From Flavobacteriales bacterium (GTDB lineage: Bacteria; Bacteroidota; Bacteroidia; Flavobacteriales; JASBRU01), in contig JASBRU010000004.1 in assembly GCA_030149285.1 (NCBI GenBank), positions 248,001 through 312,000 of the forward strand: 64,000 bases of DNA. Direction: 5' to 3'. A program made the translations under genes and the position numbers. This document shows positions 28,861 through 58,268 of this stretch, piece by piece. Numbering within the stretch: the first letter of the stretch is position 1; each line of letters opens with the position of its first letter. The notes below the pieces were generated by a model. It ran no database searches. It was not told the origin of the DNA and saw only the letters and a list, made by a program, of their open reading frames with translations.

Positions 28861-28946
28861 CTTCATAAACCCTTGAAAAGAAATGACAGTTATGCTTAAA
28901 GGAAACCAAATCAATCAGTATATTGGTTTCCTTTATTGCATGCTTC

Positions 28947-35599: not shown

Positions 35600-35802
35600 A
35601 TTATTTATTAACGTCTGCTGTTAATAAAATCGTATATAATTGTTACGTAAATATTTAGTCAATAGTTTGTAGCAGAAGCATATTTTTTCGGAAGTAGGTA
35701 ACCAATAACCGTGCCGAGGGTTGTAGGACAGCTTCAATTGTTAGACTTGTAAAAGGGGAAAGGTTGCTTAAAGATTCTATTTTTCAATTTGTTTCTTCAT
35801 TT

Positions 35803-36278
35803 CCTTTTGCTTTGATGCAAAACAACCCTCTACTTTCTTTTGCAGCCACCAGAAGTATCTCTTCATTTTCTTTGCGTGTTTATAGAATTAGAGATCTTCC
35901 TTTTGTCTTGATACAAAAGGAACAAAAATCAAGGCTGCTCAAAATCCACTAAAAAACTGCGTTTTACGCTGAAACAAAAGCTGTTTGAGCTCGAAGAGCG
36001 AGTTCTTTTGTTTCTATACGCTTAAAAACTTGTTTTTCTTCACATGAATTTTAAGATGCCGCTTTATTGCTTTCTACGAAAGCAACGAGTCTTCCCTCAG
36101 TATAGTGCTTTGTTTGCGTTAAGAATTTTCGAAGCCTTGGAGAAAATTTAGCAAAGCAAGTGCGGTTTTAGCCTTTAGGCTAAAAATACCTTGGGAAGGC
36201 GGTCTTTTCTTTTGCTTCGTTTTCTTTGGACAAGCAAAGAAAATGAAGAGGCATTTGTTTTCAAGGCAAAATGAACAG
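35803..36278. repeat. Nested inverted-repeat element, copy 1 (476 bp variant)
   Basis: This fills most of the 729-base gene-free stretch 35556-36284. Outer ends CCTTTTGCTTTGATGCAAAA and TTTTCAAGGCAAAATGAACAG, then a second arm pair (35861-35878 with 36231-36248, 17 of 18 bases inverted), then an inner left arm at 35899-35934 like the other copies. The inner core shares the CACTAAAAAACTGCG and TTCTATACGCTTAAAAAC blocks with the other copies; the segment between the CAAAAG / CTTTTG arms is flipped relative to them. The right third is different sequence with its own hairpins. The 62-codon frame across it is not a gene. Confidence 0.8.
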
Positions 36279-42981: not shown

Positions 42982-43048
42982 AATAGTTGCTCTTTGTTTA
43001 TTGCCATAAGTTAATAGGGTTTCTATAGGGATTAATTTTCTCTCCTTT

Positions 43049-43404
43049 CCTCTTGCCTTGGTGCAAAAGGAACAAAAAATCAAGGCCACTCAAAATTCAC
43101 TAAAAAACTGCGTTTTTACACTAAAACAAAAGAACTAGCCTACGGCTCAAAACAGCTTTTGTTTCTATACGCTTAAAAACTTGTTTTTCTTCATGTGAAT
43201 TTTAAGATGCCGTTTTATTGCCTTCAAAGAAAGCAACTAGATGAAGTGTTTCCAGAAATAGCTGTAAATCAAGTGGAGTTGCGCCGACCAAAGGGAGGCA
43301 GGGCATGAAATGATAGATTTATCAGCGGTTTTGCTTGTAAAGCAAAAATTTCCTTAAACAATCTTGAACTTTTGGTTCGTTTTGTTTCAAGACAAAATGA
43401 ACAG
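43049..43404. repeat. Nested inverted-repeat element, copy 2 (356 bp)
   Basis: Occupies most of the 433-base gap 42982-43414 between convergent genes. Left arm 43049-43087 contains a hairpin with CTTGG loop and ends in ATCAAGGCC; right arm 43363-43404 contains TTTTGTTTCAAGACAAAA and ends ATGAACAG. The arms are imperfect inverted repeats. Relative to copy 3, the arms have the same orientation but the whole core (43088-43362) is reverse-complemented, with roughly nine of ten bases matching over its full length. Confidence 0.82.
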
Positions 43405-43414
43405 ATAAAGAGGC

Positions 43415-43849
43415 TTACAGTGCAAGTTGCATCACATAATGCGGACCAATACCTTCAATAGCAAACTCATCACCTACTTTGCTAAAGTTTAGCTTTTTGT
43501 AGTAGCCACAGGCGGTAGTTCGGGCATTGCACCAGAGCACGTCAGCATTTCTTTCTTTCAGAATTTCTAGGCTTTTGTGTACCAAAGCAGCACCGTAACC
43601 TTTGCCTCTATGCTTGGGTTCGGTAGCCATGCCTCGTAAACGATAAGGATTTTTAGCCTCTACTTTAGGCTCATCATGATTGTAATAGGAAGCAATGCTA
43701 ACTATCTCTCCATCTAAAAAGTAAGCCAAATGAAAACTGTTGGGATGTTCATCATCAGGATACTCACACATGGATATTGGTTGATTAGGGCGCAACACTT
43801 TATGCCTTAAAGGCCTTGTTTCTGCTGCCGTAACCAAGCGTATTTCCAT
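43415..43849 (-). CDS. GNAT family N-acetyltransferase
   Basis: A 144-residue GNAT with the acetyl-CoA-binding segment KHRGKGYGAALV and a preceding RLRGMATEP strand. Distinct from the longer GNAT at 4573. The start overlaps the purQ stop by one base (TAATG), so it is translationally coupled to purQ; a functional link to purine synthesis is not obvious. Substrate unknown. Its 3' end lies ten bases from repeat copy 2. Confidence 0.85.
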   Translation of the reverse strand: MEIRLVTAAETRPLRHKVLRPNQPISMCEYPDDEHPNSFHLAYFLDGEIVSIASYYNHDEPKVEAKNPYRLRGMATEPKHRGKGYGAALVHKSLEILKERNADVLWCNARTTACGYYKKLNFSKVGDEFAIEGIGPHYVMQLAL

Positions 43850-44544
43850 TAAGCAGGCACTAAACTTGTAAGGATAGATTCAAATAACAAACGACCATCT
43901 GTGTTGCCTAAGTTTTCATCTGCAGCACGCTCCGGGTGAGGCATCATACCAAAAACGTTTTTGGTTTTGTTAGTTACACCCGCAATGTTTTGCACAGATC
44001 CGTTAGGATTAGCACGCATATTCACGCCACTTTCTGCATCGCAGTAACGGAATAAGATTTGCTTGTTATCAGATAGCTCTCTAAGGGTTTGGTCATCAGC
44101 AAAATAACGGCCTTCGCCATGAGCAATCGGTATTTTTAAGGCTTTACCTTTGTCTAAGGTAGCGGTAATTGCAGTTGTATCGGTAGCCGGTTTGATGTAT
44201 ACGTTTTTGCAGATAAACTTCTGGTTATCATTGTGTAACAATGCGCCAGGTAATAAACCTGTTTCACATAATACCTGAAAACCATTACATACACCTAGTA
44301 CATATCCTCCGTTGTTGGCAAATTCTATCACCTTCTCCATAATAGGAGAAAACTTAGCAATAGCACCAGAACGCAAGTAGTCTCCGTAAGAGAAACCACC
44401 TGGCAACACTACAAAGTCTACACCCTGTAAGTCAGTGTCTTTGTGCCATAGTTCAACAACTTCTTGTTTAAGGATATTGCGCAACACGTATATCATATCG
44501 TGATCGCAATTTGAGCCGGGAAATATTACAACGCCAAATTTCAT
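43849..44544 (-). CDS. purQ: Phosphoribosylformylglycinamidine synthase subunit PurQ
   Basis: 231 residues from the ATG at 44544; five more residues are possible upstream. Class I glutamine amidotransferase: nucleophile Cys in LGVCNGFQVL, His and Glu in MMPHPERAADE, and GGFSYGDYLR. PurQ supplies ammonia to PurL for FGAM formation in purine synthesis. Presence of a separate PurQ implies a small-type PurL and a PurS elsewhere, as no partner is near. A -7 box lies four bases upstream of the ATG, so the mRNA is probably leaderless. Confidence 0.95.
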   Translation of the reverse strand: MKFGVVIFPGSNCDHDMIYVLRNILKQEVVELWHKDTDLQGVDFVVLPGGFSYGDYLRSGAIAKFSPIMEKVIEFANNGGYVLGVCNGFQVLCETGLLPGALLHNDNQKFICKNVYIKPATDTTAITATLDKGKALKIPIAHGEGRYFADDQTLRELSDNKQILFRYCDAESGVNMRANPNGSVQNIAGVTNKTKNVFGMMPHPERAADENLGNTDGRLLFESILTSLVPA

Positions 44545-44548
44545 GGTG

Positions 44549-44556
44549 CAAATGTA
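44549..44556 (-). promoter_or_regulatory. -7 promoter box of purQ
   Basis: CAAATGTA reads TACATTTG on the minus strand, a perfect TAnnTTTG, only four bases before the purQ ATG. A clear -33 TTG is not found at the right spacing. Confidence 0.55.
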
Positions 44557-44570
44557 CAAAAATCCAATAG

Positions 44571-47375
44571 TTAATTCGCTACAATTTCTTCATCTCTGGT
44601 ACGAAACGGAATTGCCGTATTATACAGCTCTTCTATTAGGCGAATTAGACAATTTTCTATGTCAGTAATATCAGCAGAAGTGAGATTATTATTGCCGTTT
44701 AGGATGAGCTCCATTAAATAACTACTGGGTTTTCTGAGTGAGAATATCCCTGAAGAAATCTCGGCATCGGGGTTGTTTTTTAGGTAAAAATAAGCGTACA
44801 TCAGTAATTGAAAAGGCTTTCCGTAATCAGGGTCTGTAAAGGGTAGTTCTATTTCATCAACCTTTAAAGTACGGGGTTCTACAAAACCAGTTTTATAGTC
44901 AATAATGCGGGTTTGCCCATTTAGCCTATCAATTCGGTCTATGATACCCCTAATTTTTACAGTTTTATCTAAGTTTTTTAGTGGGAGATACACCTCAAAT
45001 TCTTGCTCCAAGCCTACAATTTCCAGCTTTGCATTTTCTGCTTTCAGCTTTCTTTGTTCTGCTTTTAAGAAATTGGTAATGAATCGAATAGCGACAGAGT
45101 AAGTCAATAAATTTTTGCCAGATTTGATGTCTCCATTCTTAAAATGTTGCTCAAAATACTTGGTAACCAAATTGGGTACTTCTTTTTTGAGTGCTTTAAT
45201 AGCCTCATGATCAATCTCAAAGCCAATTAAGGGCCTGTATAATTCCTCTAAAGTATCGTGTATTACTTGCCCTAGCGTATTGGCGGCAACGGTTTCTTCC
45301 AGTTCATCGGTATCATCAATGCCCAATACTTTTTTATGGTAAAAGTCAAGTGGGTTGCGGATATACGTAGCCAACGAAGATGGCGAAAAGCCTTTTTCGG
45401 CCAATTCATCTAATCGCTCTAAAATTGGTGCAGTTTTTACAATTTCAAAGGAATTCGGCTCGTTTTGTCGTACCGGAGCGTTGTATAAAGTCTTGTTAAA
45501 CTGTATGTTAGGGTTTATATGAACCAGTTCATTTTCTAATTGAGTTATGAAACGACTTTGCTCCCCACTTCCAAAGGCATCTGTCTCGGTATTATACAGC
45601 AAATAAATGTTTTCTGCACGCTGTAATAATCGGTAAAAGTGATAGGCATAAACTGCATCTTTTTCTTCATACGTAGGTAAGCCTGTTTCCTTTTTTATGT
45701 CATACGGAATGAGGCTGTTAGCTGTTTTACCGGAGGGTAAAGTGCCCTCGTTTACAGCAGTTAGAATAATGGTTTTAAAGTCTAAAGCACGGGTTTCTAA
45801 CATCCCCATTAATTGCAGTCCGCTAAGGGGTTCTCCAAAAAAGGAAAGTGTATCGGTATTGACGAGTTGTTTAAAGAAACTTTGCAAAGTCTTATTATCC
45901 GAAATAAAACCATATTCGGTTTGTAATGACTTTAATCGGTTGAGAATTTTAGAAAAATGAAACAAGTATTCCAGTTCAATGCTACTGTTGGATGTTTTTT
46001 GTTCAGAAAATGTGTCCTTTAAAAGGGTAATTAGGGCAGATAATCGACCTAAAAGTGTGTTTGCATCATTTTTTGAGTCTTCGAAGAGCAATTGAAGCAC
46101 ATTTTCATTTTTATGTTCCATTTTTTGGCTCAACTTTTCTAAATCTCGGTAAGAAACAAAAGCCATGTTACGCTTTATGATGTCACTAACCAATGCCCCC
46201 GAAACGGAATTCCCGAGGATGGCCATTGTGTAGCTATTTTCGAGCAAAGCATTTACATCTTTATGATAAAAACGAGCAGTTTTGTCAACGCTCTCTCTGT
46301 AGCGTTCTACCTGGCTATGCAGCGAAAAAAATACCTCAAAAAACTGGGTTAAAGGAACGTTTTTGAGGGGGTATCCCATCGTTACATTTACCTTGTCTAC
46401 CGTTTTTGGCAATGAATTCAATGTGGGCAAAAGCAGGTTCTCATCGGCCAACACAATTGCCGTATCTTGTAATTTTGGAGAAAGTTCTTTTTGCAAAATA
46501 TTTCCGGCAATTTTTGCCTGGCCAATTTGTCCGGCAACACCTATTACCTCAATAATTTTTTTGTCCTTTTGTAATGAATTTTCTACCCAATTGAAAGCGC
46601 TTCCCTTTGGGAGTTTTCTATTTGCCCGATGGTTTCGTAAAAACAAACCTGCCTCATGTTTGGGGTTGTGTAAATAATATTCATCTGCATCCCAAAAAAT
46701 CTCAGCTATGCCTTCAGTTAGTAGGTAGTCGATGATTTGTTCTTCGGCTTTGTTGAGGGCGTTTAATCCGGCAAAGAGAATTTTCTTTCCCTCCTGACTA
46801 ATTTTCAGGTGCACTTTGTCAGGATTTTCTGCCACCTGACGGTATGCCATCCCTTGGTACCCTTGCTTTTTAGCTAATAAATTGTTGTTGAGTGCTTTGT
46901 AATATTTGCCTAAAGATTTCCAGAACTTTAGGTAACTTTTAATTAGGGTAGTTGCCTCAGCTTCATCTCCTACGCCCCAGCTTTCTAATTTTTTGGCTTC
47001 CTCTAAATAAGAGAATAGATAATCGGGGTTAATTAAATATCTGTCAACTTCATTAAAATCGTACAACATTAAATGTCCCCATTTGCTAAAACTTTCAAAG
47101 GGTTCAATATTTTCTCCATCTACCTGCTTACAAGCATTGTACAGCTCAAAAAGTAAGCTCACATTATCTAGTACTTTAATGCCCGAAACATACTCTACAA
47201 AGTCTTCTGCAGCCAATATTTGTGGCATCCATATAGGTTTTTCAATACGCTTAGATAGCTCTGTTTTTAGAAACAAACCCGCTCTACGACTGGGTAAAAC
47301 AATAATCAACTCTTCGGTGTTGCTGCCGTAGTTGTTAATGATGTGGGACGCTATTTTTCCTAAAAAACTTTCCAT
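44571..47375 (-). CDS. AddB-like PD-(D/E)XK nuclease/helicase-fold protein
   Basis: 934 residues from the ATG at 47375. The N-terminal part has a degenerate helicase fold (LIIVLPSRRAGLFLKTEL replaces Walker A, so it is probably not an ATPase), and the C-terminal part is a PD-(D/E)XK nuclease with RIIDYKTG at about residue 838. This is the Bacteroidota AddB-type partner of the AddA-like gene at 28947. No Fe-S cysteine cluster like that of Bacillus AddB was recognised. The two subunits are encoded on opposite strands and 12.5 kb apart. Confidence 0.86.
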   Translation of the reverse strand: MESFLGKIASHIINNYGSNTEELIIVLPSRRAGLFLKTELSKRIEKPIWMPQILAAEDFVEYVSGIKVLDNVSLLFELYNACKQVDGENIEPFESFSKWGHLMLYDFNEVDRYLINPDYLFSYLEEAKKLESWGVGDEAEATTLIKSYLKFWKSLGKYYKALNNNLLAKKQGYQGMAYRQVAENPDKVHLKISQEGKKILFAGLNALNKAEEQIIDYLLTEGIAEIFWDADEYYLHNPKHEAGLFLRNHRANRKLPKGSAFNWVENSLQKDKKIIEVIGVAGQIGQAKIAGNILQKELSPKLQDTAIVLADENLLLPTLNSLPKTVDKVNVTMGYPLKNVPLTQFFEVFFSLHSQVERYRESVDKTARFYHKDVNALLENSYTMAILGNSVSGALVSDIIKRNMAFVSYRDLEKLSQKMEHKNENVLQLLFEDSKNDANTLLGRLSALITLLKDTFSEQKTSNSSIELEYLFHFSKILNRLKSLQTEYGFISDNKTLQSFFKQLVNTDTLSFFGEPLSGLQLMGMLETRALDFKTIILTAVNEGTLPSGKTANSLIPYDIKKETGLPTYEEKDAVYAYHFYRLLQRAENIYLLYNTETDAFGSGEQSRFITQLENELVHINPNIQFNKTLYNAPVRQNEPNSFEIVKTAPILERLDELAEKGFSPSSLATYIRNPLDFYHKKVLGIDDTDELEETVAANTLGQVIHDTLEELYRPLIGFEIDHEAIKALKKEVPNLVTKYFEQHFKNGDIKSGKNLLTYSVAIRFITNFLKAEQRKLKAENAKLEIVGLEQEFEVYLPLKNLDKTVKIRGIIDRIDRLNGQTRIIDYKTGFVEPRTLKVDEIELPFTDPDYGKPFQLLMYAYFYLKNNPDAEISSGIFSLRKPSSYLMELILNGNNNLTSADITDIENCLIRLIEELYNTAIPFRTRDEEIVAN

Positions 47376-47460
47376 TGGGTATGGTTCTTGCAATATTCGC
47401 AAAAAAGTAAAGAAATATCGGCATTTTATAGAGATATCGAGGTGGGAACGATTTTTTTAT

Positions 47461-47468
47461 TAAATTTG
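47461..47468 (+). promoter_or_regulatory. -7 promoter box of the first AGMO-like gene
   Basis: TAAATTTG, a perfect TAnnTTTG, 63 bases before the ATG at 47532 and in the 156-base gap shared with the divergent AddB gene. No clear -33 TTG. Confidence 0.5.
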
Positions 47469-47531
47469 CAACATGAATTAGCGCTTAACTAATTCATTTC
47501 AACACATTTAGTGTAATAAAACGGAACTGTT

Positions 47532-48782
47532 ATGGAAGGCTTTTTTGGACCAAAAAACTTCTGGCTGCTTGTCGTTCTTGTAATGACAATCATCCTAGCC
47601 GAGTTCTTGTATCTAAAGTATGTACGAAAAGAAGAGGGATTTAGATTTAAGAACTCTGTAGCGAATTTTAGCATTAGCGTATTCGATCGCTTTTTTGCAT
47701 TAATGGTTACACCAATTGCATATCTTATGTATCATTATGTGCATGAGCATTATGCTATATGGGATATCAAAGAAAATATTTGGTCTGTAATAGTTGTGTT
47801 TTTTGCTGTTGACTTTCTTTGGTACTGGTACCACAGAGCAGGGCATCGCATCAATGTTTTGTGGGGTGCGCATATCGTTCACCATCAAAGTGAAGATTAT
47901 AACCTTACGGCAGCCCTTACCATTACTCCTTTTCAGGCTATATTAGGGCACTTGTTCCGCATTATATTACCAATTATCGGCTTTCCGCCGGAAGTAGTGA
48001 TTACACAATATTTAATTGCAGGGGGTTATCAGTTTTTCTTGCATACAACTACAGTAAAAACTTTAGGTCCATTAGAGTGGATATTTGTTACGCCATCTCA
48101 CCACAGAGTACACCATGGGGTAAACGATAAGTATATTGATAAAAATTACGGTGGCACACTTATTATATGGGACCGTATGTTTGGTACGTATGTAAAAGAA
48201 GATGAGCCTGTAAAATATGGTATTACTTCTTCTTTAAAAAATCGCCAGTTTTTTTGGGGTTTATTCCACTACTGGTATGATTTGGGACAACGTGCAAAAC
48301 AATTAGATACTTTTTCTGACAAAGTAAAGTTGTTTTTAAAAGGACCCGATTGGCAACCCGAAGGAAAAATTTTACAACAAGTTCCTGAACTTTATACCGA
48401 GTATGATGGTTATGACTATAAAGAGAATGATTTATCGTACGGATTACGTTGGTATGTAGGTATACAAATAGGACTTGGATTTTTAACAGTATCCGTTGCA
48501 TCCTACTACTGGGACTTATTTAGCCCCGTACAATTGGGAATCATCACAGCATACGTTTTACTCTCTTTATTTAGTGTAGGACGTTTAATGGAAAAGAAGA
48601 AGCTGGCATTCCATTTAGAGTTAGCTAAATCTATTTTATTTGTAGCAGCATCTATTTGGGTCTTCCACAACTTCGAGTGGTTTATACCAATTGTTATAGG
48701 AATTACGTTAGTATCTGCAGTCTGTGCACTGTGGTTTTACAAGTTCCGTGATGAAATGGGATATATTAAGCAGAAGAACTAG
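47532..48782 (+). CDS. AGMO-like sterol desaturase/alkylglycerol monooxygenase family protein
   Basis: A 416-residue membrane di-iron protein. Histidine boxes HRAGH, HIVHHQSEDYN and TPSHHRVHHG sit at residues ~105-200, and the YIDKNYGGTLIIWDRMFGTY segment is the one shared with animal alkylglycerol monooxygenase (AGMO/TMEM195). Six or more hydrophobic segments flank it. AGMO cleaves ether lipids with a pterin cofactor; in bacteria the activity is mostly untested. It is the first of two tandem paralogs (about half identical) and is divergent from AddB. Confidence 0.85.
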   Translation: MEGFFGPKNFWLLVVLVMTIILAEFLYLKYVRKEEGFRFKNSVANFSISVFDRFFALMVTPIAYLMYHYVHEHYAIWDIKENIWSVIVVFFAVDFLWYWYHRAGHRINVLWGAHIVHHQSEDYNLTAALTITPFQAILGHLFRIILPIIGFPPEVVITQYLIAGGYQFFLHTTTVKTLGPLEWIFVTPSHHRVHHGVNDKYIDKNYGGTLIIWDRMFGTYVKEDEPVKYGITSSLKNRQFFWGLFHYWYDLGQRAKQLDTFSDKVKLFLKGPDWQPEGKILQQVPELYTEYDGYDYKENDLSYGLRWYVGIQIGLGFLTVSVASYYWDLFSPVQLGIITAYVLLSLFSVGRLMEKKKLAFHLELAKSILFVAASIWVFHNFEWFIPIVIGITLVSAVCALWFYKFRDEMGYIKQKN

Positions 48783-48880
48783 ACTAAAAAAACCTTAGTT
48801 CCGGACTGATAAAATTTTCTTTTAAAAACCGACGTGATTGGCACAGTTTATGCCTATCACATTAGAAAATTATACATCAA

Positions 48881-50128
48881 ATGGAAAGCCTGTTCAGTGC
48901 CAAAAATTTTTGGTTTATCGCAATCATCGCCTTTAGTATAATAGGGGTAGAATACTTATTTTCTAAAATTACTAAACGCGGATATTATCGTTTTCAGAAT
49001 ACCGTGTCTAATATAAGTACAGGAGCTTTTGATAGGCTCTTTGCACTATTTCTTACACCCTTTGCCTACGGCTTATTTAAAACTGTACAAGAAAACTACG
49101 GTTTAATAGATATTCCGTTTAATGCATGGACCTGGATACTCTCTTTTTTCCTTTTCGATTTAATGTGGTACGTATACCATATGTTAGGGCATAGAGTAAA
49201 TGTATTGTGGGGTGCACATATTATCCATCATCAAAGCGAAGACTTTAATTATACAGTACCTTTAAGCATTACGCCTTTCCAGTCTATTATTAGATATAGT
49301 ATATGGATGGTATTACCGTTTATAGGTTTTCCTGCCGAAATGGTTATTGCCAATACCGTTTTAAATGGCGCATATCAATTCTTTTTACATACACAGTTTG
49401 TACCTAAGCTAGGACCTATTGAGTGGGTGTTTGTTACCCCTTCTCATCATAGAGTACACCACGGTGCAAACCCAGAGTATATTGACAAAAACTACGGTGG
49501 TATTTTAATTATTTGGGATAGAATGTTTGGTACTTATGCAGAGGAAAAAGCACCTGTAGTATTTGGTGTAACTAAATCTATCAAGTCTAGACAGTTTTTT
49601 ACCCACCAGTTCCACTACTGGTATGACTTATGGCAACGTTCTAAACAACTGGATAACTTTCCTGACAAAGTACGCCTATTCTTTAAAGGCCCTGAGTGGG
49701 AGCCAAAAGATAAACATCTTGTTTCTGCAGACTTGTATGTAGATAAGGGTAAGTATGACTACCAACACTTATCGTACAACCTTAGAGCCTATATAACTAC
49801 CCAAATGATATTTACAATGGGAGTGCTAAGTTATATAGCCTATAACTTTGCGAGCTTTAAACCCAATATTCAGCTGTTGGCTGTAGTTATTGTATTAAAC
49901 ACCTTGGTAAGCGCGGGTGCCTTTTTAGAGAAAAGAGGCTATGCGGTTTACTCTGAGTTTGTGAAGTTTATTTTACTGAATGTGTTTATAGGATCCTTAT
50001 ACCATGATAACATCAACTTTACAGCCATCTTTGGTATGTCTTTTGCCATTAGCACAGGCTTTATCTTATGGGTATCTACTCAGTACGATGAGCTAAGAGA
50101 GGTAACATGGCATCATCACACACACTAA
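48881..50128 (+). CDS. AGMO-like sterol desaturase family protein (tandem paralog)
   Basis: A 415-residue protein parallel to the gene 98 bases upstream: HMLGH, HIIHHQSEDFN and TPSHHRVHHG boxes at nearly the same positions, and YIDKNYGGILIIWDRMFGTY. The first box replaces Arg-Ala with Met-Leu between its two His but keeps the iron ligands. The pair most likely arose by tandem duplication and diverged in substrate. The 98-base gap has no clear terminator. Its stop lies six bases from the convergent nadD gene. Confidence 0.85.
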   Translation: MESLFSAKNFWFIAIIAFSIIGVEYLFSKITKRGYYRFQNTVSNISTGAFDRLFALFLTPFAYGLFKTVQENYGLIDIPFNAWTWILSFFLFDLMWYVYHMLGHRVNVLWGAHIIHHQSEDFNYTVPLSITPFQSIIRYSIWMVLPFIGFPAEMVIANTVLNGAYQFFLHTQFVPKLGPIEWVFVTPSHHRVHHGANPEYIDKNYGGILIIWDRMFGTYAEEKAPVVFGVTKSIKSRQFFTHQFHYWYDLWQRSKQLDNFPDKVRLFFKGPEWEPKDKHLVSADLYVDKGKYDYQHLSYNLRAYITTQMIFTMGVLSYIAYNFASFKPNIQLLAVVIVLNTLVSAGAFLEKRGYAVYSEFVKFILLNVFIGSLYHDNINFTAIFGMSFAISTGFILWVSTQYDELREVTWHHHTH

Positions 50129-50134
50129 GAAACG

Positions 50135-50710
50135 TTACTTTTTATAGAAATTCATCTCATCAATAAACTGCCATACTTTGGCTGGTAGCATGGGGCTTAC
50201 ATTCTTTTTATCCTTAATTGCTTTACGGATGAAGGTAGAGGCTATTTGCATAATAGGTGCATCTACCATATGTACTTTTGGATGCTCTTTTAGTTTGCCT
50301 CCATCAGCCTCTATACGAGGGTATACATACAGCTCGTGGTAATCTAAAATGGTTTCGTAGTTCTTCCACTTATGGAAGGTTTGCAGATTATCTGCACCCA
50401 TAATTAAAGCAAAATCTTTATCTGGGTATTTGTCTACCAATGCAGCCAATGTATTGGCTGTGTAAGAAGGTTGTGGCAAACCAAACTCTATGTCTGTAGA
50501 GCGCATGCCGGGCAGGTCCTCTATAGCTAGGTTTACCATATATAGGCGCTGCCTATCATCCAGCAGGGTGCTTTTCTTTTTAAAGGGGTTATGCGGAGTA
50601 ACTACATACCAAACTTCATCCAAATCAGTAAACTGCAACATGTAGTTGGCTATTACCAAGTGTCCTATATGTATGGGGTTATATGTACCAAAATAGAGAC
50701 CTACCTTCAT
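50135..50710 (-). CDS. nadD: Nicotinate-nucleotide adenylyltransferase
   Basis: A 191-residue nucleotidyltransferase with the HxGH motif at H14-H17 (GTYNPIHIGHL) and the C-terminal ISSTxIR-type motif seen as IASTFIRKAIK. NadD forms deamido-NAD from nicotinate mononucleotide. Last gene of a yicC-gmk-nadD operon with no gap to gmk; this arrangement is common in Bacteroidota. Confidence 0.95.
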   Translation of the reverse strand: MKVGLYFGTYNPIHIGHLVIANYMLQFTDLDEVWYVVTPHNPFKKKSTLLDDRQRLYMVNLAIEDLPGMRSTDIEFGLPQPSYTANTLAALVDKYPDKDFALIMGADNLQTFHKWKNYETILDYHELYVYPRIEADGGKLKEHPKVHMVDAPIMQIASTFIRKAIKDKKNVSPMLPAKVWQFIDEMNFYKK

Positions 50711-51277
50711 TTATCCTATAAATTTTGAAACCAAATTATGGGCTTCATTTTTTGCTTCTTCTAAGTCATCATTTAAAATGATGGTGTCAAACTGATTGGC
50801 AAAAGATAACTCTTCTTCTGCTTTGGCAACACGTTTAGCCAAACTGGCATCATCTTCGGTACCTCTGCCTTGTAGGCGTCTTTTCAACTCATCTACAGAT
50901 GGAGGCTGTACAAAAACGGCTAAGGCACTATCGCCAAATTGTTTTTTCAGGTTTAAACCACCTTGTACATCAATATCAAAAATTACATGCTTGCCTTCTG
51001 CCCAAATACGTTCTACTTCACTACGTAAGGTGCCGTAATAGGTGCCTTCATATACCTCTTCATACTCTAAAAACTCATTGTTGTCAATTTTGTTTTTAAA
51101 ATCTTGGGTAGATAAAAAGTAATAATCTTTTTGATGCTCTTCTTTTCCTCGCTTAGCGCGTGAAGTAGCAGATATAGAAAAACTCAACTGCGGTATGGTA
51201 TCCAGTAAATGATGCACCAATGTGGTTTTGCCGGAGCCAGATGGAGCAGAAAATATAATGAGTTTACCGCTAGGCAT
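50711..51277 (-). CDS. gmk: Guanylate kinase
   Basis: A 188-residue kinase with the P-loop at 11-19 (APSGSGKTT), the GMP-binding [15 protein letters not shown] segment and [14 protein letters not shown]. Converts GMP to GDP. It starts directly after yicC with no spacer and ends where nadD starts, so the three form one transcript. Confidence 0.97.
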
Positions 51278-52144
51278 TTACAATACGTTTAAAATTTGCT
51301 CTTTTATTTTTTCCAGCTCGTCTTTCATCATTACTACCACCTTTTGCATACCCGCATGGTATGACTTAGAGCCAATAGTATTTATTTCTCTGCCCATTTC
51401 CTGAACAATAAAGCCCAACTTTTTACCATTAGACTCAGTACCGTTTAGCTCTTGCTTAAAGTAGTTGCAATGGCTGGTCAAACGTACTTTTTCTTCGGTA
51501 ATATCCATTTTCTCTAGGTAGTAAATTAGCTCTTGTTCAAGCCTGCTTTTATCAACCTGGTCGCCCAATTCGGCTAAGTTTTTTTCTAGGCGTTCGCGTA
51601 CACTTGCTACACGCTCACTTTCAAAAGTCTCAACAGAGGTTAAGCCTTCTTGTATATTGTTTACTCTTAGTACAAAGTCTTTTTCCAGCTCAGCACCTTC
51701 ATCGGTTCTAAAAACATTAAATTTTTCTACAGCTTCAAAAATACAAGTTAGTATTTGCTTCCATTCTTCCTCATCTAGCTCTACACGCTCAGGGCTTACC
51801 ACATCGGGCATTTTTACTGCCGTAGATAGTATGTCTTGGCTGTTTAAGCCATTTTCTGCATCAATGCTTTTTAGCTGATCGATATAGCCTTTTACTAACG
51901 ATTTGTTGATAGTATAGGTGCGCTCGTCGCCGGTAACCTCTGCGTAAAGAGAGAAGTCTACCTTACCGCGTTTAATGTGCTTTGCCAACTCGGTACGTAA
52001 TACCAATTCTTTCTCTCGGTAAAAAGAGGGCATGCGCATGTTTAAGTCTAGCTGTTTGCTGTTTAACGACTTTACTTCTACCGTAATTTTTTTGGTAGGA
52101 AGCTGTAACACGGCTTTACCAAAACCTGTAAGTGATTGTATCAT
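51278..52144 (-). CDS. YicC family endoribonuclease-like protein
   Basis: A 288-residue protein: YicC-like N-terminal domain (MIQSLTGFGKAV, then EVKSLNSKQLDLNMRMP) and the C-terminal DUF1732 domain (YYLEKMDITEEKVRLTSH, then GKKLGFIVQEMGREINTIGSK). Family members are stress-related RNases. First gene of the operon with gmk and nadD. A -7 box seven bases before its ATG suggests a very short leader. Confidence 0.93.
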   Translation of the reverse strand: MIQSLTGFGKAVLQLPTKKITVEVKSLNSKQLDLNMRMPSFYREKELVLRTELAKHIKRGKVDFSLYAEVTGDERTYTINKSLVKGYIDQLKSIDAENGLNSQDILSTAVKMPDVVSPERVELDEEEWKQILTCIFEAVEKFNVFRTDEGAELEKDFVLRVNNIQEGLTSVETFESERVASVRERLEKNLAELGDQVDKSRLEQELIYYLEKMDITEEKVRLTSHCNYFKQELNGTESNGKKLGFIVQEMGREINTIGSKSYHAGMQKVVVMMKDELEKIKEQILNVL

Positions 52145-52151
52145 AAGGCTG

Positions 52152-52159
52152 CAAATTTA
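52152..52159 (-). promoter_or_regulatory. -7 promoter box of the yicC-gmk-nadD operon
   Basis: CAAATTTA reads TAAATTTG on the minus strand, a perfect TAnnTTTG, seven bases before the yicC ATG at 52144. Confidence 0.55.
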
Positions 52160-52170
52160 GGTAAAATGAT

Positions 52171-53064
52171 TTAGGCTTTTACCTTTGCCGGCTTACTTAC
52201 TATATATACCCCTGCAAAAACAAGTGCTGCAGAGATAATTTTAATGGCATTTAAAGAGTCGTGCCCCACCATTATAGCTACTATAGATGCAAATATGGGT
52301 TGTGAGTAAATGTAAAAACTCACCCCGGATGCATTTAACTTTTTAAGTCCGTACATATTAAATAAGTAAGCCAATACGGATGTACCAAGGATTACAAAAG
52401 CCGTTTCTAGGTATATAATAGTTGGCATTTCTGCCCAGTTTACGGCTGTCATTTGGCTATACCCAAATGGGAAAACAAATAATAACCCAAACATAAACAC
52501 CCATTTTACCACCACAATGGTGTCGTACTTATTTATTAAAGGCTTGGCTATTACCAAGTATATACCGTAGGATAATGAGTTGATGAATACCATAAGGTTT
52601 CCTAAAAAGGTGCCAGACTGTCCTAAGGAAATTGTTTTTCCGTAGGTCATTAGCAACACAGCTCCGGAAAGCCCTACTACTATACCTAGTATTTTTCTTC
52701 GTGTAATTTTTTCTTTTAGGATAAATGCTGCCATCATTAAAACCATAATGGGGTTGGTGGTCATAATAATGCCTGCATTAATTTGGGTGGTCATACTCAA
52801 GCCCTCTAAAAAGAAAAGCTGATTGATGGTAATACCAAACAAACCACAAGCCATAAACCTAGGGATGTCCTCTTTTTTTATGCCGTCTTTTTTAAAGTTG
52901 GGGCGCAGTAAAGTAAAGATGAGAAAACCACCTATTACACGTGTAAGTACCAGTCCAAAAGAGCCTATGTAACCGTTCATTACATCTTTGGCTACGGTGT
53001 AGTTAATACCGTAAATAAGGTTAGCCGTAAGTACAGCTATATGTGCCAGTAAATTCTTGTTCAT
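52171..53064 (-). CDS. EamA/DMT-family transporter
   Basis: A 297-residue protein with ten predicted helices in two EamA repeats (residues ~5-140 and ~150-290). The family exports amino acids or metabolites or transports sugars; the substrate is unknown. It lies nine bases downstream of the ArsC-like gene on the same strand, so the two may be co-transcribed, and it ends 26 bases before yicC, which has its own promoter. Confidence 0.85.
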   Translation of the reverse strand: MNKNLLAHIAVLTANLIYGINYTVAKDVMNGYIGSFGLVLTRVIGGFLIFTLLRPNFKKDGIKKEDIPRFMACGLFGITINQLFFLEGLSMTTQINAGIIMTTNPIMVLMMAAFILKEKITRRKILGIVVGLSGAVLLMTYGKTISLGQSGTFLGNLMVFINSLSYGIYLVIAKPLINKYDTIVVVKWVFMFGLLFVFPFGYSQMTAVNWAEMPTIIYLETAFVILGTSVLAYLFNMYGLKKLNASGVSFYIYSQPIFASIVAIMVGHDSLNAIKIISAALVFAGVYIVSKPAKVKA

Positions 53065-53072
53065 TCAATTTT

Positions 53073-53420
53073 TCAGAAAGCACTTTTAGCGGCTTCCACA
53101 ACACTTTTGCTATTTCCAACAAATATTTGATTATCCACTACCATTACCGGACGCTTTAAAAAGGTATACTCGTTTAGTATCAGTTCTCGGTAATCATCTT
53201 CGCTTAAATTTTGGTTAGCCAAGCCCAAGCTTTTGTATTTCATGGCGCGACGGCTAAACAAACTCTCGTAAGAACCACTTAACTGTTTCATCTTATCCAA
53301 TTGAGCCTCGGTAATGGGTTCTGTTTTGATGTCTTGCAACACCACGTCATCACTAGGGTTTAGCTCCTTAATAATTCGCACACAAGTGCTGCAAGTAGAG
53401 AGATGATAGATCTTTTTCAT
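53073..53420 (-). CDS. ArsC/Spx-like thioredoxin-fold protein
   Basis: About 115 residues from the ATG at 53420; an ATG at 53441 adds seven residues upstream of the fold. Residues 2-15 hold MKKIYHLSTCSTCVRII, a CxxC pair as in arsenate reductase-family and Spx-like proteins. The later region (LFSRRAMKYKSL, then TFLKRPVMVVDNQ) matches the ArsC layout. No ars genes are near, so a redox regulator or unrelated reductase role is more probable than arsenate reduction. Confidence 0.82.
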   Translation of the reverse strand: MKKIYHLSTCSTCVRIIKELNPSDDVVLQDIKTEPITEAQLDKMKQLSGSYESLFSRRAMKYKSLGLANQNLSEDDYRELILNEYTFLKRPVMVVDNQIFVGNSKSVVEAAKSAF

Positions 53421-53438
53421 AGCCTGAACAATTTGCCG

Positions 53439-53446
53439 CAAAGATA
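53439..53446 (-). promoter_or_regulatory. -7 box candidate upstream of the ArsC-like gene
   Basis: CAAAGATA reads TATCTTTG on the minus strand, a perfect TAnnTTTG, 18 bases before the chosen ATG. Confidence 0.5.
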
Positions 53447-53528
53447 GGTTTATATAGTTGAATACACAGGCTAATCGGCATACTTTAAAGCTCCTCGCAT
53501 ATTTCTTAGCAGATACATAAAGCTTTAT

Positions 53529-53536
53529 TACATTTG
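53529..53536 (+). promoter_or_regulatory. -7 promoter box of the trans-sulfuration gene
   Basis: TACATTTG, a perfect TAnnTTTG, 35 bases before the ATG at 53572. The -33 element is not clear. Confidence 0.5.
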
Positions 53537-53571
53537 TAGTAATTGATAATCAGAAAAACAGAATAAATTAT

Positions 53572-54717
53572 ATGAAATTCGGAACCAAAGTTATTCACGC
53601 AGGACTAGAACATGACTCTGCAACCGGAGCAGTAATGACTCCTATTTACCAAACATCAACTTACGCGCAAGCATCACCGGGAGACCATAAAGGTTTTGAG
53701 TACTCACGTACCGGAAACCCAACCCGTGCTGCACTTGAGCGAAACATTGCAGCTATAGAAAACGGTAAGCATGGTTTGTGTTTTGGTAGTGGATTGGCTG
53801 CTATAGATGCAGTAATAAAGTTATTAAACCCCGGCGATGAGGTGATTTCTACCAACGACTTATACGGTGGTTCGTACCGAATTTTTACCAAGATATTTGA
53901 GAAATACGGCATCAAGTTTCACTTTGTAGGGATGCAAGACCCAGTGAAAATTGAGTCGATGATAAATGACAATACCAAACTGATTTGGGTAGAAACACCA
54001 ACTAACCCAATGATGAATATTATTGACATTGAGGCTGTAAGCAGAATTGCAAAAGCAAAAGGCTTGTTATTAGCGGTAGACAATACCTTTGCTACCCCAT
54101 ATTTGCAAAACCCAATAGATTTAGGGGCTGATATAGTAATGCACTCTGTAACCAAGTACTTAGGCGGCCACTCTGATGTGGTAATGGGTGCTTTGGTAGT
54201 AAATGATGATGCATTGGCAGAGCAGTTGTACTTCATTCAAAATAGTAGTGGAGCAGTACCGGGTCCACAAGACAGCTTTTTAGTACTAAGAGGTATTAAA
54301 ACCTTACACTTACGTGTACAAAGACATTGCGAAAATGGTGAGAAAGTAGCTCATTACTTAGCTTCTCATCCAAAAGTAGATAAGGTATATTGGCCGGGCT
54401 TTGAAAGCCATCCAAACCACGAGGTTGCCAAAAAGCAAATGCGTGGTTTTGGCGGTATGATATCTTTTACCCTAAAAGGTAATCGCATGGAAGATGCTCA
54501 TAAAGTAATCTCTACTATGCATGTGTTTACCTTAGCAGAATCGTTAGGTGGTGTAGAGTCTTTATCAGGACACCCTGCTACCATGACGCATGCTGCTATC
54601 CCAAAAGAAGATCGTGAAAAAACCGGAGTAGTAGATTCATTAATCCGCTTGAGTGTTGGTGTAGAGGATGCCGATGATTTATTGGCAGATTTAAAACAAG
54701 CTTTAGACAAGATATAA
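53572..54717 (+). CDS. Cystathionine gamma-synthase/lyase-type PLP enzyme
   Basis: A 381-residue PLP enzyme of the trans-sulfuration family. PLP lysine K195 in SVTKYLGGHSD, YSRTGNPTR at 44-52 and DLYGGSYRIF at ~96-105 are the hallmarks. It may be a synthase (metB) or a lyase (mccB-like); Bacteroidota genomes hold both, and the sequence alone does not settle it. Starts a small plus-strand run with the TrkA-like gene (one-base gap) and the SDR gene. No methionine genes are adjacent. Confidence 0.9.
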   Translation: MKFGTKVIHAGLEHDSATGAVMTPIYQTSTYAQASPGDHKGFEYSRTGNPTRAALERNIAAIENGKHGLCFGSGLAAIDAVIKLLNPGDEVISTNDLYGGSYRIFTKIFEKYGIKFHFVGMQDPVKIESMINDNTKLIWVETPTNPMMNIIDIEAVSRIAKAKGLLLAVDNTFATPYLQNPIDLGADIVMHSVTKYLGGHSDVVMGALVVNDDALAEQLYFIQNSSGAVPGPQDSFLVLRGIKTLHLRVQRHCENGEKVAHYLASHPKVDKVYWPGFESHPNHEVAKKQMRGFGGMISFTLKGNRMEDAHKVISTMHVFTLAESLGGVESLSGHPATMTHAAIPKEDREKTGVVDSLIRLSVGVEDADDLLADLKQALDKI

Positions 54718-54718
54718 T

Positions 54719-55396
54719 ATGATAGGTCAACGTTTTGCCGTAATTGGCTTGGGTCAGTTCGGTTCGGCTATTGCAAGAAACCTCTCTGAAAGAGGGGCTG
54801 AGGTAATAGCTATTGATTATAATGAAGACAATGTAGAGGCACTGAAAGATCACGTGGCTTATGCTGTAACCTTAGATGCTACAGATAAGAAAGCATTGCA
54901 ATCGCAAAACATAGAAGATATGGATGCGGTGGTAGTGTCTATAGGCGAGAACTTTCAGGGTTTGCTGCTATGTACCTTTATTTTACAAGAGCTAGAGGTA
55001 AAACGGATTATAGCCAGAGCACAAGGTCCTACACAACGTAAAATCTTAGAAAAAATGGGTGTTACCGAAATTCTTTCTCCGGAAGATGAGGTAGGTAACA
55101 ACGTTGCAGAGCAATTGGTAAACCCAAGTGTATTGATGTGTATGACTCTGCCGGATGATTTTGAGATTGTAGAGATTAAAGCTCCAAAAGCGGTTATCTC
55201 TAGGTCTTTAGATGATATAGGCTTGCGTGTAAAGTATAAGGTAAACCTGATAACGGTATTACGACAGTCTGAAAAAGACGGCAAGCATCATATTATTGGT
55301 GTACCTAAGTCTGATACTCAAATAGAAGAGAACGATATTATTGTAGTGTTTGGTAAAACACGAAACATCGATAGGTTTATCGAAATCAATAATTGA
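54719..55396 (+). CDS. TrkA/KtrA-like potassium uptake regulatory subunit
   Basis: A 225-residue protein with a RCK-N Rossmann domain (IGLGQFGSAIARNLSE at ~6-21, then an acidic strand end IAIDYNEDN) and a C-terminal RCK-C/TrkA-C domain (~140-225). The single-domain-pair size fits KtrA rather than two-repeat TrkA. It gates a Ktr/Trk potassium channel via nucleotides; no channel gene is in the window. It starts one base after the PLP enzyme stop and its stop overlaps the SDR start by one base, which supports co-transcription. Confidence 0.9.
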   Translation: MIGQRFAVIGLGQFGSAIARNLSERGAEVIAIDYNEDNVEALKDHVAYAVTLDATDKKALQSQNIEDMDAVVVSIGENFQGLLLCTFILQELEVKRIIARAQGPTQRKILEKMGVTEILSPEDEVGNNVAEQLVNPSVLMCMTLPDDFEIVEIKAPKAVISRSLDDIGLRVKYKVNLITVLRQSEKDGKHHIIGVPKSDTQIEENDIIVVFGKTRNIDRFIEINN

Positions 55397-56103
55397 TGAA
55401 TTATTACTTTATTACCGGTACTAGCCGTGGCATTGGCAAAGCAATAGCAGAACTGTTATTAATGGATGCCAATAATAAAGTAATTGGTATATCCAGAGAG
55501 CAGTCTATTAGTAATCCTAACTATAAACACATCACTTTTGATTTGAGTGATGAAAAGGCAATTACAAACTTCCAATTTCAGGTTCCTGATGATGCAAAAA
55601 AAGTTTGCTTAATAAATAATGCAGGTGCAATTGGGCAAATAAAACCACTTGGAGAAATAGATTCGATAAGTATTGTTAAAGTATTTACAATAAATACAAT
55701 AGCACCTTCTGTTTTAAGTAATAATTTTATAGCGCAATTAGCTAATCACTCGGCAAGAAAGACCATTTTAAATGTAAGCTCAGGTGCCGGAAAAAGGGCC
55801 ATAGAATCGTGGGCAACTTACTGTGCCTCTAAAGCAGCCATAGATTTATTTTCTGAAACAATAGCCAAAGAGCACCCTGAAATACGAGTGTATTCTATTG
55901 CTCCGGGGTTAGTTGATACACAAATGCAAGTAGAAATACGAAGCGCCAACAAAGAAGACTTTAAATATGCCAGTGTGTTTAAAGGCTATCATGATAATGG
56001 CGAATTGAATGACCCTAATACTGTTGCAGAGAAGTACATCAAAATCTTGAATAACCCTACCGATTACCCCGATGTTGTTTTTTCGTTGAGGGATATTGAA
56101 TAA
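55396..56103 (+). CDS. Short-chain dehydrogenase/reductase, benzil/sepiapterin reductase-like
   Basis: 235 residues from the ATG at 55396, which overlaps the previous TGA. Cofactor motif TGTSRGIG at 7-14, NNAG in the centre, and the catalytic SSGAGKRAIESWATYCASKAA giving Ser, Tyr and Lys. The C-terminal APGLVDTQMQ region resembles benzil reductase and sepiapterin reductase. A pterin role would suit the AGMO-like enzymes upstream, but this is speculative. Its position in a Ktr-like operon is unexplained. Confidence 0.82.
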   Translation: MNYYFITGTSRGIGKAIAELLLMDANNKVIGISREQSISNPNYKHITFDLSDEKAITNFQFQVPDDAKKVCLINNAGAIGQIKPLGEIDSISIVKVFTINTIAPSVLSNNFIAQLANHSARKTILNVSSGAGKRAIESWATYCASKAAIDLFSETIAKEHPEIRVYSIAPGLVDTQMQVEIRSANKEDFKYASVFKGYHDNGELNDPNTVAEKYIKILNNPTDYPDVVFSLRDIE

Positions 56104-56155
56104 TAGGGCAATTACGTCTTAATACTTTTCTATATTTATACTTAGTCTAAAAAAA

Positions 56156-56761
56156 ATGACAATGAGAGCCAAAACCCTACTATTAACAATGCTATTCTTA
56201 GCAGTTTCTTTTACAGCATTTTCTCAAGAGTATAAAAAAGAAATTCGAAAAGGGTTTAATGCCTATAATAGACTATTAATTTCTGAAAGATATGATGAAG
56301 CATTTGATTACCTAAATGATGACTTTTTACAATTGTTTCCTAAAAAACAATTAATAGAGGAGTTTAAAAGCATTACAGAAAATGATGTAATGAGCGTGAA
56401 AATTGTTGACCCATCAATACTTGAAGTTTATGATAGAGAAAAAATTGAGAAAAATTATTATGTAATACTGGTGTACTCGAATATTCTAAGAACAAGTTTT
56501 AAGTTGATAGAAGATGAAACGGCTGAGCAATATAGTTTACGTATGGCTGAAGCTAAAAAGGAGTTAGAAGCATTATTTGGTATAGAGAATGTTAAATATG
56601 ATAAGGATGAAACAGTATTTAACGTATATACAGAATCTAAGGTTGTAGCAACTTCTATAAATGGAGATAGCAATTGGAAGTATTTAGTAATAGACCCTTC
56701 CATTAAATTTGTATACGAAAGAATATTACCAAAAACTATTGTACAAAAAGCATTTCAATGA
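56156..56761 (+). CDS. Hypothetical secreted protein, tandem paralog A
   Basis: A 201-residue protein (a second start at 56162 is possible) with a signal peptide ending in AFSQ (residue ~24) followed by EYKKEIRKGF. The mature domain is of unknown family and about 175 residues, with an alpha/beta look and no cysteines. Its 3' end overlaps the start of the next paralog by four bases (ATGA), so the two are translationally coupled. Function unknown. Confidence 0.68.
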   Translation: MTMRAKTLLLTMLFLAVSFTAFSQEYKKEIRKGFNAYNRLLISERYDEAFDYLNDDFLQLFPKKQLIEEFKSITENDVMSVKIVDPSILEVYDREKIEKNYYVILVYSNILRTSFKLIEDETAEQYSLRMAEAKKELEALFGIENVKYDKDETVFNVYTESKVVATSINGDSNWKYLVIDPSIKFVYERILPKTIVQKAFQ

Positions 56762-57354
56762 AAACTATAACAAAGTTCTTAACGCTAATTTTTATAACAG
56801 CATCTATTACAGCATTTTCTCAAGAGTATAAAAAAAATATTGAGAAAGAGTTTTCAGCATATTTACAATTAATATTGAATGGAGATTTTGAACAGTCTAC
56901 GGAGTATATTATGGAAGAGATGTTCGAATATATTCCAAAAGAAACATTGGTTTCATTAATGGAGTCTATGCTAAATGACCCTGACATTAAAATGTCAATT
57001 AAAGACTCTAAAGTTATAGAGATAAATGATTCTAAAGAAATTGAAGGGAAGCATTATGCGATACTCATATATTCCAATTTAATGACAATGGAATTAGTGA
57101 AACAAGAAGATGAAACAGAGGAGGAGTATTCTTCTAGGGTTGACTTAACTATATCTTCTTTGAAAATTACTTTTGGCCCAGAAAATGTAACCTATAGTGG
57201 AGAAGGACCTATAGAAATTTATGCTAGAAAAAGAGCTTGTGCAGTTTCTCTTAATGGCGAAAGCCAATGGAAGTTTATTACTATACAGGAGAAACAAAGG
57301 TTTCTCTTAGAAAAAATATTACCAAAAGAATTAATAGAAGAGTTGTTCTGGTAA
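56758..57354 (+). CDS. Hypothetical secreted protein, tandem paralog B
   Basis: A 198-residue protein homologous to the preceding gene: signal peptide ending AFSQ, then EYKKNIEKEFSAY, a similar middle part (SKVIEINDSKEIEGKHYAILIYSNL against a like stretch in paralog A), and ending ILPKELIEELFW versus ILPKTIVQKAF. The four-base overlap with paralog A and equal length suggest recent tandem duplication with divergence. It is followed 12 bases later by a YcxB-like membrane gene. Confidence 0.68.
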   Translation: MKTITKFLTLIFITASITAFSQEYKKNIEKEFSAYLQLILNGDFEQSTEYIMEEMFEYIPKETLVSLMESMLNDPDIKMSIKDSKVIEINDSKEIEGKHYAILIYSNLMTMELVKQEDETEEEYSSRVDLTISSLKITFGPENVTYSGEGPIEIYARKRACAVSLNGESQWKFITIQEKQRFLLEKILPKELIEELFW

Positions 57355-57366
57355 CAACATAGCCTT

Positions 57367-57888
57367 ATGAAATTTATATACAGACTTACAAAAGAAGACT
57401 TACTGGTACATCTTTTATACAAGAATAGAAGTTTAAGAAAGAAGCTTCCAGCTAGAAGTGTTACTATAATCTTAATCTTGTTTCTTTTATCAATGGATAG
57501 ATATAAAAAGGATGGATTTGATGGGGCAATCGTACTAATATCAATAACTACAATAGTCTTTATCTATTACTCGTTTTTTATAAAATATGTATATAGATAT
57601 TTATATAAAGTACATATTGACAAAAAGTTAGCCCGAAAAGCTGATAAAGAAATAGTATTTCAAATAGAAGGAGAATATCTTTACCTAAAAGACAATATTA
57701 GTGAATGTAAATTACTTTTGTCAGCAGTTGAGGAGGTACATGAAATAGGTAAGTATTTCTTTTTAGAAACCTCACACGCGGATAGCATTGTAATCCCTAA
57801 AAGAGCCATAGAGAATAATAGCACATTTAAACTATTCTTAAGAAACCTAGATGTTGAGTATAATGAAAACCTAAAATGGAAGTGGTAG
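57367..57888 (+). CDS. YcxB-like membrane protein
   Basis: A 173-residue protein with two membrane helices at residues ~30-48 and ~55-78, then a C-terminal beta-rich domain of the YcxB type (SAVEEVHEIGKYFFLETSHADSIVIPKRAIEN). Family function is unknown. It is probably the last gene of the operon with the two secreted paralogs, and it is followed by the 401-base gap that contains repeat copy 3. Confidence 0.75.
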   Translation: MKFIYRLTKEDLLVHLLYKNRSLRKKLPARSVTIILILFLLSMDRYKKDGFDGAIVLISITTIVFIYYSFFIKYVYRYLYKVHIDKKLARKADKEIVFQIEGEYLYLKDNISECKLLLSAVEEVHEIGKYFFLETSHADSIVIPKRAIENNSTFKLFLRNLDVEYNENLKWKW

Positions 57889-57912
57889 GTTAATTTTTTA
57901 TTCTCTTCCTTT

Positions 57913-58268
57913 CCTTTTGCCTTGATGCAAAAGGAACAAAAAATCAAGAAGTGTTTGAGGAAATTTTTGCTTTGCAGCAAAACCGCTGCTAAATCTTACC
58001 GTTCCATGCCCTGCCTCCCTTTGGTCGGCGCAATTCCACTTGATTTACAGCTATTTCTGGAAACACTTCATTCTATTTGCCTTCTTTGAAGGCAACAAAG
58101 TGGCATCTTAAAATTCACGTAAAGAAAAACAAGTTTTTAAGCGTATAGAAACAAAAGCTGTTTGAGCCGTAGGCGAGTTCTTTTGTTTTAGCGTAAAACG
58201 CAGTTTTTTAGTGGATTTTGAGCGGCCTTGAATTTTTGGTTCGTTTTGTTTCAAGACAAAATGAACAG
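57913..58268. repeat. Nested inverted-repeat element, copy 3 (356 bp), core inverted
   Basis: Fills most of the gap 57889-58289 between convergent genes. Left arm 57913-57948 has the perfect hairpin CCTTTTGC-CTTGAT-GCAAAAGG; right arm 58225-58268 has TTTTGTTTCAAGACAAAA and ends ATGAACAG, as in copy 2. The core 57949-58224 is the reverse complement of the copy 2 core over its whole length. Because the arms are distinguishable and not flipped, this is a core inversion, not just opposite insertion. Confidence 0.83.

Follow-up and report, generated by a model that had tools for sequence, protein, structure and literature searches.

An extragenic mosaic repeat with reassorting arms and an inverted core in a Flavobacteriales genome

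Within a 64,000-nucleotide stretch of a Flavobacteriales bacterium (the window: assembly GCA_030149285.1, contig JASBRU010000004.1, positions 248,001 to 312,000), a small repeat occurs in two copies of 356 bp each whose ends keep the same orientation and whose middle does not. Copy A (43049 to 43404) and copy B (57913 to 58268) both have a left arm, armL, on the left and a right arm, armR, on the right, and the core of about 275 bp in copy A is the reverse complement of that in copy B. We consider it fairly likely that the repeat belongs to an extragenic mosaic family in which arms and modules are exchanged without a dedicated invertase, that copy B is the fixed outcome of one exchange of this kind, and that the family spreads passively, much like miniature inverted-repeat transposable elements (MITEs).

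Arms and core of copies A and B

The cores of the two copies align with a score of 262 in inverse orientation versus 53 in direct orientation. The arms, by contrast, align directly: the left arms match as TTAATTTTCTCT..ATCAAG and TTTATTCTCT..ATCAAG, and the right arms share CTTGAAnTTTTGGTTCGTTTTGTTTCAAGACAAAATGAACAG with one mismatch in 42 positions. Identity between A and B is 95% for armL and 98% for armR, and it is 92 to 93% for M1 and 91 to 93% for M2, the two core modules, which stand in opposite order. When the arms are instead compared by the module that they flank, those on M1 are 76% and those on M2 79% alike between A and B, the better match in each case being the other arm (95 to 98%). 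A repeat search of the window returned the same inverted pairs (I1, I3, and I4), and a covariance model of the arm recovered all five arms of the window's three copies at E values below 1e-12. The pattern is far beyond chance. A first-pass annotation made from the sequence alone had described fixed arms around an inverted core, and both the alignments and the inverted repeat pairs confirm it; rather than arms that cannot be told apart or cores in one orientation, we found arms that are 74 to 81% identical to each other and a core that aligns in inverse only. Its point that plain insertion in opposite orientations could not have produced such a pattern is also supported, as is its statement that the window holds no transposase or recombinase gene, judging by Pfam searches of essentially all open reading frames (ORFs) of at least 100 amino acids not overlapped by longer ones.

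The building block of the repeat is a half-element, consisting of an arm of about 42 nucleotides directly 5' of a stem-loop module (M1, M2, or a third type, Z). The 356-bp form consists of two halves that meet tail to tail at a small hairpin, so that each core comprises two different modules with its center marked by the small palindrome GTTGCCTTCAAAGAAGGCAAC; single halves and head-to-tail arrays are also found. By the module map, supplemented by alignment and the arm model, copy A consists of a pseudoknot-like armL of the ATCAAG type (43045 to 43084, plus strand), M1 with the closing stem CTCAAAATTCAC/GTGAATTTTAAG (43085 to 43216, plus strand), the central hairpin (43218 to 43237), a reversed M2 that was also found by M2 homologue search (43241 to 43360, minus strand), and a reversed armR of the TTCAAG type (43361 to 43404, minus strand). 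In copy B, mapped with the arm model and a stem comparison, armL stands on M2 (57909 to 57950, plus strand), followed by M2 with an intact 9-bp closing stem (57949 to 58074, plus strand), the central hairpin (58077 to 58096), a reversed M1 (58097 to 58226, minus strand), and a reversed armR, here on M1 (58225 to 58268, minus strand). Copy C (35895 to 36278) has its left arm and half of its core in common with A and B. It comprises armL (35895 to 35935, plus strand, by arm model and module map), M1 (35934 to 36065, plus strand), a central hairpin TTGCTTTCTACGAAAGCAA seen in the sequence (36067 to 36085), a reversed Z module with its own arm type (..CTTTGCTTGTCCAAAG..; 36091 to 36256, minus strand), and, outside the Z arm, a truncated second arm that is a scrap of armR (36254 to 36278, minus strand). 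Upstream of copy C, arm scraps TTCCTTTTGCTTTGATGCAAAA and CTTCATTTTCTTTGCGTG at 35800 to 35887 suggest nested or decayed older elements.

Exchange between arms and modules

The genome is represented by a nine-contig metagenome assembly that is 76% complete. Comparing the pieces by BLAST with all copies yielded eight copies as different pairings of halves, and a piecewise search of this kind may miss divergent ones. With hp for the central hairpin, they read armL-M1-hp-M2'-armR' (A), armL-M2-hp-M1'-armR' (B), armL-M1-hp-Z' (C), hp-M1'-armL' (D), Z-hp-M1'-armL' (E), armR-M2-hp-Z' (F), M1-like-hp-M2' without arms (G), and hp-M2'-armR' (H). ArmL accompanies M1 four times (A, C, D, and E) and armR accompanies M2 three times (A, F, and H). 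Copy B is the sole exception, so its arrangement is probably the derived one.

Reassortment is plainer in a complete, single-contig genome of the same order (G115), in which two arms, a and b, and two modules, K1 and K2, occur in all four combinations. Arm b is also found on a further module, K3; the arms of K1b and K3b are 100% identical and their modules 66%, whereas K1a and K1b have modules that are 92% identical and arms that are 77% identical. The break falls at the arm/module boundary, that is, after TC[A/T]AG, where the module begins. These comparisons show that arms are exchanged independently of modules and that copy B represents one case of a general arm exchange. The first-pass annotation had proposed that arms and cores be scored separately over all copies in this and related genomes; done so, copy B is the only swapped copy in its own genome, and the arm/module swaps recur in G115. 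The same annotation had held that the pattern could come only from an inversion between the arms or from an active invertase. That part is not supported, because arms and modules exchange independently and replacement of arms would also suffice.

A dedicated invertase is unlikely on several grounds. The two arms of one element agree exactly over no more than 7 bp, no recombinase was found in the window, no serine recombinase was found in the 76%-complete assembly, and of the eight copies just one carries the flip. The two tyrosine recombinase genes of the assembly are on a different contig without clear arms, with a weak partial arm match near one of them (15.9 bits). These observations bear on the idea that the core is an actively invertible segment, an inverton or phase-variation switch on whose arms a site-specific recombinase acts. 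Bacteroidota invertons are mostly intergenic (PMC11892184), as the repeat is, and like them it has inverted arms around a short intergenic segment and both orientations among its copies, one copy being flipped. Yet the inverted identity is not near-perfect as it is in invertons, no invertase is nearby, and orientation is fixed per copy as far as seen, with cores that have diverged by 7 to 9%. Copies A and B moreover sit between convergent genes, so that a flipped promoter would find no downstream gene start. We therefore regard a working inverton as very improbable; copy B looks like a fossil of piece-shuffling between copies, not a working genetic switch.

The partners in an exchange may be separate copies or the opposite ends of a single copy, and the process would be an infrequent strand switch or gene conversion at the hairpin bases, where the arms share only a few bases (TCAAG). 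Copy B would then have arisen either by one inversion across TCAAG..CTTGA or by two arm replacements, and the same data fit both. For B alone, a single inversion across TCAAG is simplest. A separate proposal, confined to the B event and overlapping with the explanation that we favor, is that a single intramolecular inversion of the core between imperfect inverted arms made B and that the element is otherwise an ordinary repeat; the inversion would have come about by recombination or, during replication, by a template switch across the closing stem CAAAAAATCAAG/CTTGAATTTTTG. This proposal is in line with the joint swap of the two arms of B, whose modules are both intact, with the position of the junctions in the shared TCAAG, and with the predicted fold of B, in which the inner parts of the two arms pair with each other. 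The exact stretch common to the arms is short for such an event, at most 7 bp, and the reassortment between copies in G115 needs no inversion. We find the single inversion plausible, if somewhat short of an even chance; reassortment of arms between copies is what is seen in the wider family. Misassembly of copy B, to which a fragmented and incomplete metagenome assembly might be thought prone, since repeats invite misjoins, strikes us as extremely unlikely. A and B differ at 7 to 9% of core sites, which short reads or k-mers should separate, the closing stem of M2 is intact in B where those of A and F are not, and arm swapping recurs in the single contig of G115.

Covarying structure of arm and module

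The arm consists of two interleaved inverted repeats, for example TTCCTTTTGC-CTTGAT-GCAAAAGGAA-CAAAAA-ATCAAG, in a layout resembling an H-type pseudoknot with a six-base A-rich spacer. Its helices are kept by compensatory changes. Covariation was 0.243, compared to 0.086 after shuffling and at most 0.067 with the partners slid, and a second arm set gave 0.285 versus 0.075 shuffled; the two sets comprised 18 and 13 distinct arms drawn from many genomes. The second helix is mostly invariant (CTTGA/TCAAG), with essentially only the last pair varying among AU, UA, and CG, and we regard this helix as supported by the alignments, if not universal. Module M2 covaries as well: in an alignment of 11 sequences, 13 of 20 pairs have two-sided changes, and covariation is 0.490 versus 0.213 shuffled and at most 0.197 for slides. 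In many copies the two sides of the outermost stem vary together (GAAGTGTTT/AAACACTTC, the closing stem of copy B, as well as GAGCATTTT/AAAATGCTC and GGAAGCTT/AAGCTTCC). Folding of the whole of copy B gave z scores of -5.9 as DNA and of -6.6 and -4.2 as RNA of the plus and minus strands, respectively. G-U pairs in the arm and M2 gave no clear strand preference. At the gathering score, Rfam 15 had no match in the window and, in a relative, matched a signal recognition particle (SRP) RNA alone.

Such structure raises the question of whether arm and module are a structured RNA or a single-stranded DNA site with a selected host function, carried by different mobile elements, the shuffling being a by-product. 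In addition to the covariation in arm and M2, the recurrence of the arm directly 5' of M2 across families and its presence inside an unrelated-looking MITE in another genome, described below, would fit. But no Rfam family, promoter, or expression evidence accompanies it, G-U pairs clearly favor neither strand, copy number and placement resemble those of passive repeats, and many genomes have no arm. We judge it unlikely. More tentatively than our favored explanation, one may envision arm and module as a conserved structured nucleic acid, a pseudoknot followed by a stem-loop, present in about 40% of the sampled genomes of the class and having its own selected function, with its parts reassorted as cassettes at a fixed boundary by some recombination process and traveling in several unrelated non-autonomous elements; this is a speculative possibility.

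Distribution, mobility, and relation to known repeats

At an E value of 0.01 or less, the arm covariance model found a match in 82 of the order's 148 sampled genomes, although the weaker of these matches may be chance; at 1e-5 or less it found one in 82 of 198 genomes of the class, which is Bacteroidia-like. None of 125 arms at the loci inspected lies inside an ORF of 120 or more amino acids. Among the gaps bearing arms, those between divergent genes are depleted (P = 0.0007) and those between convergent genes enriched (P = 0.005). M2-like sequences occur in other families of the order, in most cases with an arm directly 5', and the partner of M2 in Poritiphilus flavus is a Z-like module, the arrangement also seen in copy F. 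The P. flavus locus (L149, 9340 to 10400) is a cluster of elements beside trpS. Its Z-type arm (TTTCGTTTTCTTTGGACAAGCAAAGAAAATGAA) is nearly identical to that of copy C though the organisms are distant, a likeness for which horizontal transfer or strong constraint is possible. Same-strand arrays of arm-bearing units of about 290 to 460 bp were seen in genus g5 (L104, 4082 to 7806; L043, 4044 to 5585; L105, 8720 to 9622), with few or no genes in between. The spacing of same-strand arms at about 300 bp in several genomes had suggested integron-like attC arrays, which we rejected because the units of the inspected arrays hold no genes. In genomes G081 (L247 to L255) and G050 (L265), arms are frequently found a few hundred bases or less from a contig end. 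Short-read assemblies therefore probably break at these repeats, and the family is likely to account for breaks in the assemblies of such genomes.

Evidence on mobility comes from another genome, G307, which has at least 32 arms, many of them identical. Those inspected lie inside a MITE of about 238 bp with terminal inverted repeats GTGAAGTTTTCGAAATAA / TTATTTTGAAAGCTTTAC and TNA flanks (for example, L293, 516 to 753; L279 to L298), which means that the arm need not be a transposon end. The 3-bp flanks match in 12 of 21 cases versus 7.2 expected by shuffling (135 of 10,000 shuffles), and tandem copies of the MITE share TTA/CTA. Target duplications of 3 bp (TNA) are thus probable in G307, and with the terminal repeats they suggest passive, MITE-like spread, in which a transposase from elsewhere would move a non-autonomous element. 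The repeat resembles MITEs in being small, non-coding, and dispersed and in having terminal inverted repeats (the arms themselves, or separate ones in G307). It differs in that the window's arms are only about 75 to 80% alike with a covarying pseudoknot-like layout, inner modules are exchanged as in a mosaic, and no target duplication is seen in the window, including at A and B. No autonomous partner element came up in searches that did not systematically target arm-flanked genes.

Known transposase systems offer a further comparison. The arms could be repetitive extragenic palindromic (REP)-like sites on which a RAYT/TnpA-REP (HUH Y1) transposase acts, which would make the elements bacterial interspersed mosaic elements (BIMEs) or REPINs (REP doublets forming hairpins). 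Mosaic intergenic hairpins in opposite orientations, built of inverted units, do resemble BIMEs (PMC2817692; PMC6006769), and the hairpins that flank RAYT subclass 2.6 of Bacteroidetes are atypical (PMC6006769). Against this, PF01797 is absent from the 76%-complete assembly and from four arm-bearing genomes that are 96 to 99% complete (G010, G025, G026, and G032), and no arm lies beside any of 20 Y1_Tnp matches. The RAYT genes of relatives carry other REPs (ACGGGCTTTAGCCCGT), and the arms have no GTAG/GTGG foot and possess an interleaved second helix. The units are halves of about 170 nucleotides, unlike REPs of 20 to 40 bp. The repeat behaves as a mosaic repeat of the BIME kind and, in one genome, as a MITE, but the features that define a REP/RAYT BIME were looked for and not found, and we hold that identity very improbable. 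At three loci in relatives (L054, L058, and L063), RAYT-type Y1 transposase genes are flanked by their own REPs (ACGGGCTTTAGCCCGT and GTCCCAACGGGAC), unrelated to the arms. IS200/IS605 and related elements likewise have hairpins near their ends and possible single-strand recognition; the ends of our repeat, however, are inverted repeats of each other, no guide or cleavage tetranucleotide was recognized, and no TnpA was found in the incomplete assembly. IS91-type rolling-circle transposition, brought to mind by GAAC/CAAG in the arms, was set aside, with PF04986 absent from the genome's own assembly and present in 2 of 40 genomes searched. RAYT and IS91 transposases as required partners are excluded as far as tested.

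Several observations weigh against mosaic exchange with passive spread. Both arms of B are swapped at once, for which a single inversion is simpler than two replacements, and no exchange intermediate or empty site was observed. The orthologous locus in a close relative was not found via the TrpS neighbor (the closest is 74% identical), so the direction and age assigned to the B event depend on what most of the eight copies show. In addition, the CTAG-type arms of family f7 retain helix S2 only in part. For G307, the target duplication is weak and no more than suggestive when non-tandem copies alone are set against a TTA/TAA background, with flanks matching in 10 of 14 (P = 0.09). Terminal repeats of the G307 type were not recognized around A or B, and no transposase is linked to the family.

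Elsewhere in the window, a UvrD-like helicase (28923 to 32099) and a protein with a C-terminal PD-(D/E)XK nuclease domain (44571 to 47402) are possibly an AddAB-like pair encoded apart. Two adjacent genes of the fatty acid hydroxylase family (47532 to 50128) have similar lengths and a repeated 105-bp stretch that is 74% alike.

The repeat family appears to be undescribed: within the open-access literature searched, we found no published description of these repeats, and nothing on inversion events at short inverted repeats. We would class it as a variant among the non-autonomous extragenic repeats already known. The flipped copy opens a view onto a widespread family of repeats in which ends and middles are reassorted at a single boundary, and this makes it testable how folded DNA without an obvious enzyme gets cut and rejoined in bacterial genomes. 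A class-wide, pseudoknot-like motif that is kept by compensatory changes and is absent from Rfam calls for an explanation, whether as a transposase site, an RNA, or something else.

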